This document shows positions 22,180 through 25,196 of a DNA stretch of 64,000 nucleotides, in pieces. The DNA is taken from assembly GCA_035295165.1 (NCBI GenBank), contig DATGJN010000089.1, positions 1 to 64,000 on the forward strand. Reading direction: 5' to 3'. The position numbers were made by a program, and so were the translations under genes. The notes under the pieces were generated by a model. It saw only the letters and a program-made list of their open reading frames with translations, had not been told where the DNA came from and ran no database searches. Numbering within the stretch: position 1 is the stretch's first letter; each line of letters starts with the position of its first letter. This DNA is from a bacterium (GTDB taxonomy: Bacteria; Sysuimicrobiota; Sysuimicrobiia; Sysuimicrobiales; Segetimicrobiaceae).

Positions 22180-23190
22180 TTACGACGCCACGCGTACCAC
22201 CAATTTACCGAAGTTGCGACCCTGCAGCAGGCCGATGAACGCGTCGGGCGCGCGCTCCAACCCCTCGACGATGTCCTCTCGGTATTTCACGCGACCGTCG
22301 CGAACCCACGCCGAGACGTCGCGCAGGAAACCGCCGATCCGTTCGGCGTGGTCGGACACGATGAACCCGCGCACGGTGAGACGCTTGCTGAGCACCGACG
22401 AGAAGTTGGGCCCGGGTTGCGGGACCGCGTCGTTGTATTGCGCGATGAGACCGCACACCGGCACGCGCGCAAAATCGTTGAGGAGCGGCCAGACCGCGCG
22501 CTGGACCGCGCCACCGACACTCTCGAAGTAGACGTCGACGCCGTCCGGGCAGGCCCGCGCGAGCGCCTCGCCGAGCTCCGGCGCACGGTGGTCGACGCAC
22601 GCGTCGAGGCCGAGCACGTCGACGGCGTAGCGGCACTTCTCGTCGCCGCCGGCGACTCCGACGACGCGACATTCCTTGATCTTTGCGATCTGGCCGACCA
22701 CGGACCCGACCGCTCCTGACGCGGCCGACACGACCACGGTCTCCCCCGCACGCGGCCGGCCGATGTCGAGGAGGCCGACGTACCCCGTCATCCCCGGCAT
22801 GCCGAGCACGCCAACCGCGGTGGAGATCGGGGCGAGCGTTGGATCCAGTTTGCGGAGCCCCCGGCCGGGCAGGACCGCGTAGTCCTGCCAGCCTCCCGAA
22901 CCGACGACAATGTCGCCGACGGCAAAGCCAGGATCGCGCGTGGCGACGACCCGTGCGACGGTGCCGCCGACCATGACCCCACCGATCGGCACCGGCCGGG
23001 CGTAGGACTTCTTGTCGCTCATCCGGCCCCGCATGTAGGGATCGAGGGAGAGCCACAGGGTACGGGTCAACACCTCGCCGTCATCCGGCTCCGCGATCGG
23101 ACCTTCCTCCATCGCAAAGTTCGCCGGTGTCGGCGGTCCGTCCGGTCGACTCTTGAGCACGATCCGTCGGTTGACGGATGACCCTGGCAT
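22180..23190 (-). CDS. MDR-family NADP-dependent oxidoreductase (CurA/leukotriene B4 dehydrogenase-like)
   Basis: Zinc-independent medium-chain reductase of 336 aa. The N-terminus NRRIVLKSRPDGPP and LWLSLDPYMRGRMSD are characteristic of the subfamily that reduces alpha,beta-unsaturated ketones and aldehydes with NADPH. The Rossmann segment is VVSAASGAVGSVVGQIAK. The structural zinc cysteines of alcohol dehydrogenases are absent, as expected. The ATG at 23190 has GGAGGGG in front; the longer frame would cover an unrelated arginine-rich stretch. It faces the riboswitch region but is transcribed away from it. Confidence 0.88.
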   Translation of the reverse strand: MPGSSVNRRIVLKSRPDGPPTPANFAMEEGPIAEPDDGEVLTRTLWLSLDPYMRGRMSDKKSYARPVPIGGVMVGGTVARVVATRDPGFAVGDIVVGSGGWQDYAVLPGRGLRKLDPTLAPISTAVGVLGMPGMTGYVGLLDIGRPRAGETVVVSAASGAVGSVVGQIAKIKECRVVGVAGGDEKCRYAVDVLGLDACVDHRAPELGEALARACPDGVDVYFESVGGAVQRAVWPLLNDFARVPVCGLIAQYNDAVPQPGPNFSSVLSKRLTVRGFIVSDHAERIGGFLRDVSAWVRDGRVKYREDIVEGLERAPDAFIGLLQGRNFGKLVVRVAS

Positions 23191-23356
23191 GGTTCCCCTC
23201 CGCGGTGACGTCCTGCTGCGTCCGGGCGCACACCGGTGACGTACGCATTGCACGGTCACCGTCCGCCTTCCTTCGCGTACACCGGATGACGGTTTCCCGC
23301 GCGATCTGCACGGCGGGATCGCCGCACGAAGACATCGGATTTTTCGCGTCTCTTTC

Positions 23357-23385
23357 TTGACATGCTTGTGGGCGCGTGCTAACGT
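23357..23385 (+). promoter_or_regulatory. Sigma-70-type promoter of the SAM-riboswitch operon
   Basis: TTGACA at 23357-23362, a 17-base spacer and TAACGT at 23380-23385. Transcription would begin near 23392, about 14 bases before the first riboswitch helix. Confidence 0.7.
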
Positions 23386-23405
23386 AGGCTCAAACTTCAT
23401 AGCAA

Positions 23406-23519
23406 CCCTTATCAAGAGTGGTCGAGGGACGGGCCCGATGACACCCGGCAGCCTACCAGGTACCCGCCTGGTGTGGTGCTAACTCCCGCGGAAGATCCAA
23501 TTCCGGTAGATAAGAGGGA
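23406..23519 (+). promoter_or_regulatory. SAM-I (S-box) riboswitch
   Basis: The sequence follows the S-box pattern from end to end: closing helix P1 strand CTTATC at 23408-23413, AAGAGTGGTCGAGGGAC, the GGCCC/GATGACACCCGGCAGCC core, a P3 arm around 23455-23481, then GGTGCTAACTCC, and the other P1 strand GATAAG at 23509-23514. Binding of S-adenosylmethionine stabilises P1 and normally allows the following terminator to form, turning expression off. The terminator is six bases downstream. A covariance-model scan with the SAM riboswitch family would confirm it. Confidence 0.93.
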
Positions 23520-23524
23520 GTGAT

Positions 23525-23551
23525 CCCCCTCGGAGTTGGAGGGGGCTTTTT
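23525..23551 (+). terminator. Intrinsic terminator, expression platform of the SAM-I riboswitch
   Basis: Seven-base-pair perfect stem CCCCCTC / GAGGGGG (23525-23531 with 23539-23545), seven-base loop, then CTTTTT. It lies between the aptamer and the PLP-enzyme gene and would stop transcription when SAM is bound. The remaining ~100 bases up to the start codon hold nothing else that I recognise except the ribosome-binding site. Confidence 0.9.
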
Positions 23552-23650
23552 GTTGTGCGCGTGCGGTGATTCTGGGCCTCCGGCCGTCGCCTGTTTCCGT
23601 CGAGGGAACAGCCAACCTGCGATCGGGTGGAGTGAAAGGGGAGGGGAGAG

Positions 23651-24883
23651 ATGGGAGTTGTCGGGCTCGCGTGCCGGGAGTGCGGGAGGCGCTATCCGGT
23701 TGAGCCGATCTTTGTTTGCGAGCACTGTTTCGGCCCGCTGGAAGCGCAATACGACAATGGAGACCTGAGCGGTCCCGCTCTTCGCGACAGTATCGAACGC
23801 GGTCCGGCATCGATCTGGCGTTACGAGGCACTGCTGCCCGCGACGCGCGTCCCGGAATGGGACCTCGCGCCGGGCTTCACCCCGCTGGTGCGCGCGGAGC
23901 GCCTCGGCCGCGCGATCGGGTTGAACGATCTCTACATCAAGAACGACACGCGAAACCCCACCTGGTCGTTCAAGGACCGCGTCGTTGCCGTCGCCCTCGC
24001 GGCGTCTCAGCGGTTCGGGTTCGACGTGCTCTCCTGCGCCTCGACCGGCAACCTCGCGAACGCAGTCGCTGCGCACGCGGCGAAGGCGGGCATGCGCGCC
24101 GTTGTGTTCATTCCGAAAGGCATCGAGCGCGCCAAGGTGGTGACGACCTCGGTCTATCGCCCGATGGTCGTCGAGGTGGAGGGTACCTACGACGACGTAA
24201 ACCGCCTGTGCCTCGAGATCGGGGAAGAACACCGCTGGGCGATCGCCAACGTGAACCTTCGTCCCTACTACTCGGAGGGCGCGAAGACACTCGCGTTCGA
24301 GGTCGCCGAGCAACTCGGCTGGAAGGCACCGGACCGGGTGATCGTGCCGATCGGCTCAGGGAACATGTTCATGAAGATCCACAAGGGGTTTGAGGAATTT
24401 CAGCGGCTCGGCGTCATCCCGGCGCACACCGTCCGCATGACGGCGGCGCAGGCGGAGGGGTGCGGGCCGGTGGCGACCGCCTATCGCAACGGCGCCGAGG
24501 CGGTGATCCCGGTCCGGCCGCACACGATCGCGCACTCGCTTGCGATCGGCAGCCCCGCCGACGGCGGGTACGTGTTGGACGTGATCCGGCGCACCGGCGG
24601 CGCGGCGGAGGCGGTGACCGACGCGGAGGTCGTAGACGCGATCCGGCTCCTCGCGGAGACCGAAGGGCTGTTTACGGAACCGGCGGGCGGCGTCACCGTC
24701 GGCGTCCTGCGAAAGCTGGCGCAGGCCGGGGTGATCGGCCCCGATGAAGTCACCGTGGCGTATATCACCGGGATTGGCCTGAAGGCGATCGAGGCAGTAG
24801 AGCAGGTCGTGGCGGCGTCGATCACGATCAAACCGACGCTGCGGTCGTTCGAGGAGCACGTGCTCGCACCGGCGGGTGCCTAG
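23651..24883 (+). CDS. thrC: Threonine-synthase-family PLP enzyme under SAM-riboswitch control
   Basis: Fold-type II PLP enzyme of 410 aa. An N-terminal zinc ribbon (C8, C11, C23, C26; CRECG and CEHCFG) is typical of one threonine synthase subgroup. The PLP lysine is K108 in WSFKDRVVAV, and the phosphate-binding loop is SCASTGNLANAV. Threonine synthase converts O-phosphohomoserine to threonine. The context is unusual: a SAM-I riboswitch precedes it and a CysO-like sulfur-carrier gene follows 31 bases later. Repressing threonine synthesis when methionine supply is high makes little sense, so the enzyme may instead use the carrier thiocarboxylate to make homocysteine or cysteine (inference). 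GGGGAGGGGAGAG precedes the ATG. Confidence 0.85.
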   Translation: MGVVGLACRECGRRYPVEPIFVCEHCFGPLEAQYDNGDLSGPALRDSIERGPASIWRYEALLPATRVPEWDLAPGFTPLVRAERLGRAIGLNDLYIKNDTRNPTWSFKDRVVAVALAASQRFGFDVLSCASTGNLANAVAAHAAKAGMRAVVFIPKGIERAKVVTTSVYRPMVVEVEGTYDDVNRLCLEIGEEHRWAIANVNLRPYYSEGAKTLAFEVAEQLGWKAPDRVIVPIGSGNMFMKIHKGFEEFQRLGVIPAHTVRMTAAQAEGCGPVATAYRNGAEAVIPVRPHTIAHSLAIGSPADGGYVLDVIRRTGGAAEAVTDAEVVDAIRLLAETEGLFTEPAGGVTVGVLRKLAQAGVIGPDEVTVAYITGIGLKAIEAVEQVVAASITIKPTLRSFEEHVLAPAGA

Positions 24884-24914
24884 CCGAACGCGAGCTCTCA
24901 GTGGAGGTGAGGAG

Positions 24915-25196
24915 ATGGCGGCACACGTACGGATCCCGACCCCGCTGCGCCGGCTGACGAAGGGCGAGCGCGTCATCGAGGTGAGCGGCGGGGACCTGGG
25001 GCAGGTGATCGACGAGCTCGAGCAACGGTACCCCGGTATCCGAGAGAAGTTGGTGGACGAGCGGGGCGACGTGCTCCGATTCGTGAATATCTTCGTGAAT
25101 GAACAGGACATCCGGTTTCTTGCCGGCCTGAAGACGCCGCTCGGCGCCGGTGCGGAGGTGTCGATCGTCCCGGCGATGGCGGGTGGGGCCGGCTAG
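24915..25196 (+). CDS. CysO-like sulfur carrier protein (MoaD/ThiS family)
   Basis: Ubiquitin-fold carrier of 93 aa. RFVNIFVNEQDIRFLAGL and VSIVPAMAGG closely resemble the C-terminal half of Mycobacterium CysO, as I remember that protein. The diglycine is followed by two further residues (Ala-Gly), so it cannot be activated as encoded: a protease must first expose the GG end, as JAMM proteases do for some related carriers. After adenylation and sulfuration, the thiocarboxylate donates sulfur to a PLP enzyme, in the CysO case CysM. Here the partner is presumably the preceding threonine-synthase-like protein. The adenylating enzyme and the JAMM protease are not in the window. The ATG at 24915 has GGAGGTGAGGAG in front. 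Confidence 0.85.
   Translation: MAAHVRIPTPLRRLTKGERVIEVSGGDLGQVIDELEQRYPGIREKLVDERGDVLRFVNIFVNEQDIRFLAGLKTPLGAGAEVSIVPAMAGGAG

Follow-up and report, generated by a model that had tools for sequence, protein, structure and literature searches.

Why a gene that reads as a threonine synthase should stand behind a SAM riboswitch and in front of a small sulfur carrier is the question raised by a locus in the 64,000-nucleotide stretch of DNA analysed here (the window; positions 1 to 64,000 of contig DATGJN010000089.1, assembly GCA_035295165.1), which comes from an uncultured lineage of the order Sysuimicrobiales. The source genome (G000) comprises 4.79 Mb in 121 contigs and is 98% complete. The locus consists of the following features:

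23357–23385, plus strand: putative promoter, read directly from the sequence (TTGACA at 23357–23362, 17-nt spacer, TAACGT at 23380–23385)
23406–23516, plus strand: SAM-I (S-box) riboswitch aptamer, RF00162 (cmscan 79 bits, E 6.4e-17)
23525–23555, plus strand: intrinsic terminator of the expression platform, CCCCCTC-GGAGTTG-GAGGGGG followed by CTTTTTGTTG
23651–24883, plus strand: metM orthologue, a ThrC-like PLP enzyme of 410 aa, predicted to be an O-phosphohomoserine-dependent homocysteine synthase
23672–23728, plus strand: N-terminal CxxC...CxxC motif inside metM (C8, C11, C23 and C26, from the sequence)
23972–23974, plus strand: PLP lysine K108 in an SFKDR motif inside metM, aligned with K61 of T. 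thermophilus threonine synthase
24248–24289, plus strand: clade signature NVNLRPYYSEGAKT inside metM (aa 200–213), in place of the NSxNPxR[IL]EGQKT of threonine synthase
24915–25196, plus strand: metO orthologue, a ThiS/CysO-like sulfur carrier of 93 aa, directly downstream of metM

The first-pass annotation had described a complete promoter, an S-box aptamer and a terminator in front of a two-gene operon, the latter composed of a threonine-synthase-like gene and a gene for a CysO-like carrier ending in GG-Ala-Gly. Both genes were confirmed in position and description by matches to TIGR00260, PALP and ThiS. The aptamer was also borne out: its match spans model positions 1–108, that is, the full aptamer, lies well above the gathering score of RF00162 (79 versus 44.4 bits), and is the single match to this model in the whole genome. 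The terminator, with a 7-bp stem at 23525–23545, was found by a terminator scan and is also present in the predicted fold of the leader; the z-score of that fold (-1.14) is unremarkable and carries no weight as evidence. As for the promoter, the TTGACA-17-TAACGT pair is present, but the claim of completeness was not sustained: scanning the leader for consensus sigma-70 promoters gave 0 calls, the pair falling below the consensus cut-off. TAACGT is compatible with TAnnnT, the -10 motif given for S. lividans (PMC8079986), and a promoter is plausible here from the sequence, if weaker than had been claimed. Divergent from the operon lies a gene for a curcumin/dihydrocurcumin reductase-like NADPH oxidoreductase (22180–23415, minus strand), whose real start is probably further inside than that of the listed ORF.

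By profile, the metM product belongs with threonine synthases: it scores 296.5 bits against TIGR00260 (cut-off 167) and also matches PALP. It has the fold family and the PLP lysine motif of canonical ThrC, from which it differs in falling into a separate clade, in having the NSxNPxR[IL]EGQKT motif replaced, in being paired with a carrier, and in standing under a SAM riboswitch. In a quick tree, 54 aligned MetM members, including Streptomyces sequences other than S. albulus MetM itself, formed one clade apart from canonical ThrC (SH-aLRT 99), the actinobacterial members being 55–58% identical to window MetM. The CxxC...CxxC motif, probably a zinc ribbon, also occurs in relatives of the MetM clade in the alignment.

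A comparison of the active site with true threonine synthases, as suggested in the first-pass annotation, revealed systematic differences in the substrate-site residues. The canonical motif NSxNPxR[IL]EGQKT, found in the 24 grouped true ThrC sequences, is absent from window MetM; N[VI]N[LMV]RP[YF]YxEGxKT occurs instead throughout the clade (N[VI]N[LMV]RP in 54 members). S155, R160 and N188 (T. thermophilus numbering) are changed to N, Y and S in 54/54 clade members, and T88L, F134Y, N188S and A194K, in the same numbering, are further fixed changes. R204 and K242 of window MetM are invariant across the clade and absent from threonine synthase. Since T88, S155, R160 and N188, which we take to be the substrate-phosphate contacts of the T. 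thermophilus enzyme, are all replaced, the acceptor site of MetM appears to have been rebuilt relative to threonine synthase, and O-phosphohomoserine must be held in a different pose.

The metO product matches ThiS with 55.5 bits, and the solved structures nearest to it are chain C of 3dwg, which we take to be M. tuberculosis CysO, and a ThiS/MoaD-family carrier in 4n6e. Its C-terminus, AMAGG-AG, extends two residues past GG. Elsewhere in the genome, contig C33 (L031 7645–10344) carries a CysO-like carrier ending in GGSS, an SbnI/SerK-like gene (a weak match to serine kinases, with a reading frame overlapping the 3' end of the carrier gene), CysM, and a JAMM protease with the HxHPx6SxxD motif (HSHPATQAHPSATD); an Rrf2-like reading frame is found directly behind the JAMM gene. 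This cluster is probably an O-phosphoserine-based thiocarboxylate pathway to cysteine. A second JAMM-family match was rejected as a protease candidate, as by eye it sits in a RadC-like protein, which leaves the C33 enzyme as the one credible candidate. One part of a MoeZ-like, rhodanese-containing E1 lies at the end of contig C16 and the other at the start of contig C86. Both the JAMM protease and the MoeB/ThiF homologue that the first-pass annotation had proposed to look for are therefore present, and with the carriers they make up all the parts for thiocarboxylate chemistry. The residues beyond GG in MetO and in the C33 carrier would need trimming.

Two further proposals of that annotation, a canonical thrC free of a riboswitch and a check of the conventional methionine route, were also followed up. 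The metM product has three closer paralogues in the genome, one of which is the thrC of a canonical hom-thrC-thrB operon on contig C103, without a riboswitch. The acylated-homoserine enzymes are absent: MetA was not found in the source genome, and its MetX match was rejected, like the others of 17–30 bits seen in many genomes, as a chance alpha/beta hydrolase match. The genome encodes two full-length PF01053 Cys/Met-metabolism PLP enzymes, one methionine-gamma-lyase/CGS-like and below all model cut-offs shown, the other a cystathionine beta-lyase above its cut-off.

From these results, we consider it very likely that metM and metO form a SAM-regulated operon for the synthesis of homocysteine from O-phosphohomoserine with carrier sulfur. 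Direct observation covers the riboswitch, both genes and their partners, the way these lie together, the separate clade and the lack of MetA and MetX; the catalysis in this lineage and the response of the operon to SAM are what we infer. The following course of events may be proposed. The Ala-Gly of MetO would be trimmed first, probably by the C33 JAMM, after which the MoeZ-type enzyme (C16/C86) would adenylate and sulfurate the GG terminus to give the thiocarboxylate. ThrB would supply O-phosphohomoserine to MetM, which, as a presumed descendant of threonine synthase, would eliminate phosphate and accept the carrier sulfur at C-gamma, not water at C-beta. Homocysteine would be released either directly or via a carrier-homocysteine adduct cut by JAMM. 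At high SAM, the ligand would bind to the S-box leader and transcription would be terminated.

Such a route has a precedent. In S. albulus, MetM is a homocysteine synthase acting via O-phospho-L-homoserine, and metM is accompanied by the carrier MetO and an upstream SAM riboswitch (Hasebe, Adachi, Maruyama, Hamano 2024, AEM 90:e01247-24, as cited in PMC12172450). The first-pass annotation had proposed that a ThrC-like enzyme makes homocysteine from O-phosphohomoserine and a carrier thiocarboxylate, which agrees with the published S. albulus system as it is related in the citing article (PMC12172450). It had also regarded this as a third variant of such pathways; according to that article, however, a 2024 study had already reported the route from Streptomyces, and the window operon is not a new pathway. 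In S. lividans, RF00162 precedes the orthologous pair, with RNA-seq support, and the genes are annotated as threonine biosynthesis (PMC8079986); in S. coelicolor, the expression of SCO4293/SCO4294 correlates with that of sulfate assimilation and cysM genes (PMC2267785). As far as the cited account of S. albulus extends, the window operon shares with it the ThrC-like enzyme, the adjoining carrier, the SAM riboswitch and the predicted O-phosphohomoserine substrate, and is distinguished by its uncultured lineage and by a carrier with two residues past GG; operons of sister families differ further in adding thrB or hom-thrC-thrB-lysC. Four genomic features of a MetM/MetO operon, namely a clade shared with Streptomyces, a carrier downstream, a SAM riboswitch and a separate canonical ThrC, are found for the window, and the conversion of O-phosphohomoserine to homocysteine with the carrier thiocarboxylate is predicted.

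Pathways of the Wolinella HcyS type combine MetY, an enzyme of fold type I, with acylated homoserine; here, in contrast, the genome has no MetA or MetX and the linked enzyme is ThrC-like. What the two have in common is methionine biosynthesis dependent on a protein thiocarboxylate, as it is cited for Wolinella (PMC5764234, PMC6225789). The CysO-CysM-Mec system of M. tuberculosis, in which MoeZ makes the carrier thiocarboxylate and a PLP enzyme acts on a phosphorylated acceptor (PMC3227635), likewise resembles the window operon in its ThiS-like carrier, PLP enzyme and phosphorylated acceptor, and has a similar cluster here on C33. That system, however, makes cysteine from O-phosphoserine with CysM, whereas the PLP enzyme of the window operon is derived from ThrC.

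The MetM clade was detected in 37/43 genomes of Sysuimicrobiales and in 16 single representatives of other families, and it also occurs in Streptomyces, Sphaerisporangium, Nocardiopsis, Pseudonocardia, Actinospica, a Chloroflexota MAG and a zetaproteobacterial MAG. A carrier gene adjoins metM at most of the relatives' loci; none was found beside metM in the f3 and f4 families, Pseudonocardia and two distant genomes. A SAM-I riboswitch lies upstream of metM or its operon at 29 of the 36 loci scanned and in further genomes. At L037 and L038 (the same as L066 and L067), from two sister-species MAGs, the contig starts at the metM start codon and the riboswitch is missing, probably owing to a common assembly break. 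In sister families thrB stands between the riboswitch and metM, and no other thrB there exceeds the cut-off; the gene order in G015 is SAM-I, hom, thrC, thrB, lysC, metM, metO. One distant genome has metM, thrB, carrier and MoeZ in a row; other distant lineages combine metM with carrier, E1, JAMM and CysM in various ways. The near-complete f4 genome G014 (2.14 Mb read), with no carrier beside metM, has a single CysO-like carrier in the neighbourhood of CysM and JAMM and a MoeZ at another locus, so that a single carrier probably serves both pathways.

Several loci deserve separate mention. In the f4 family (L130, L131, L060–L062, L065), the only thrB above cut-off lies under a SAM riboswitch and canonical thrC is located elsewhere, and for this reason SAM may limit threonine synthesis as well. 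Two carriers beside metM are fused to a C-terminal NIL domain (L142 9729–10274, L145 6557–7072), a domain also known from the archaeal/Desulfovibrio homocysteine pathway. At L136 (8716–10631), two rhodanese-like genes, thiosulfate sulfurtransferase-like by eye, are found between a metM-carrier pair and CysM-NIL-E1-JAMM, and their products are possible sulfur donors to the carrier.

MetA occurs in only four genomes of the order, all of one genus and all without MetM, and is absent from 37/37 MetM genomes; this exclusion may reflect a single replacement event. Of the 37 MetM genomes, at least 34 also have a canonical ThrC. Genome G018 (93% complete) has metM, and a canonical threonine synthase was not found in it, which may be due to assembly loss or to a bifunctional enzyme. 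Across unrelated families the exclusion between MetM and MetA/MetX is a trend only (2/16 versus 20/59, p 0.08), and the pooled p-value, which takes no account of relatedness, is given no weight. MetX is found alongside metM in 7/16 named genomes, all seven of them actinobacteria, indicating that the MetM route is redundant in some organisms. Other MetX matches were a longer one in G003 (253 bits) and partial ones in G001, G013 and G038 (95–113 bits); the longest ORF of L091 was rejected as a MetX, as it behaves like a Cys/Met-metabolism enzyme. A gap at homocysteine has been remarked for Acidimicrobium and Aquifex (Price et al. 2018).

Could the metM product simply be a second threonine synthase that happens to respond to SAM, next to a carrier for molybdopterin or tRNA thiolation? 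The full TIGR00260 match above cut-off and the annotation of the S. lividans operon as threonine biosynthesis (PMC8079986) would agree with this, as would a Microcystis homologue that is reported to have threonine synthase and threonine deaminase activity in vitro and not clearly to act as a MetM (PMC12172450). Nevertheless, we find this very improbable: nearly all genomes of the order with metM possess canonical ThrC, MetM forms a separate clade with an altered substrate-site motif, the Streptomyces orthologue is reported as a homocysteine synthase in the account cited above (PMC12172450), and the SAM control, the carrier linkage and the exclusion of MetA would be left unexplained. The two PF01053 enzymes, one CGS-like and one a cystathionine beta-lyase, raise another scenario, in which a plant-like route, with CGS acting on O-phosphohomoserine and cystathionine beta-lyase completing it, is the main source of homocysteine and MetM makes some other thiolated product. 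This is scarcely credible, as neither enzyme is under SAM control given the single riboswitch of the genome, the CGS-like protein is nearest to methionine gamma-lyase, and the orthologous metM-metO pair is, in the same cited account, the homocysteine route in Streptomyces (PMC12172450).

A variant of the preferred explanation itself is that MetM draws on free sulfide in vivo, with the carrier serving just to improve sulfur delivery, in which case neither the carrier adduct nor the JAMM step would be needed. Lineages without an adjacent carrier exist, many carriers, those of Streptomyces included, end at GG or GGC, and in the Microcystis work MetM activity was mimicked with sulfide as the source of sulfur (PMC12172450). 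We hold this variant to be possible, if rather unlikely, since G014, which lacks a carrier beside metM, keeps a CysO-like carrier, JAMM and MoeZ, and in distant lineages metM is clustered with JAMM and E1.

For the metM-metO pair as a homocysteine operon, the operon partners, the replacement of MetA and the clade residues provide independent comparative-genomic support for a recently described methionine route. To that route this study adds an uncultured lineage, the growth of the operon to thrB, hom and lysC, the replacement of MetA, the clade signature and a case of a shared carrier. MetM is still called 'threonine synthase' by annotation pipelines, an error that could be put right in many genomes with a simple sequence signature, so that methionine auxotrophy would no longer be wrongly predicted. 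The operon arrangements suggest that some methionine riboswitches control homoserine kinase, coupling the supply of methionine with that of threonine. For the order as a whole, we are inclined to favour a picture in which the carrier-dependent O-phosphohomoserine route is the sole de novo route to homocysteine, and cysteine and homocysteine would both arise from a phosphorylated acceptor and a protein thiocarboxylate, the two carriers sharing one JAMM and one activating enzyme. In several families the riboswitch would have been extended to homoserine kinase, and in one genome to hom, thrC, thrB and lysC too, so that SAM would also throttle the supply of threonine.
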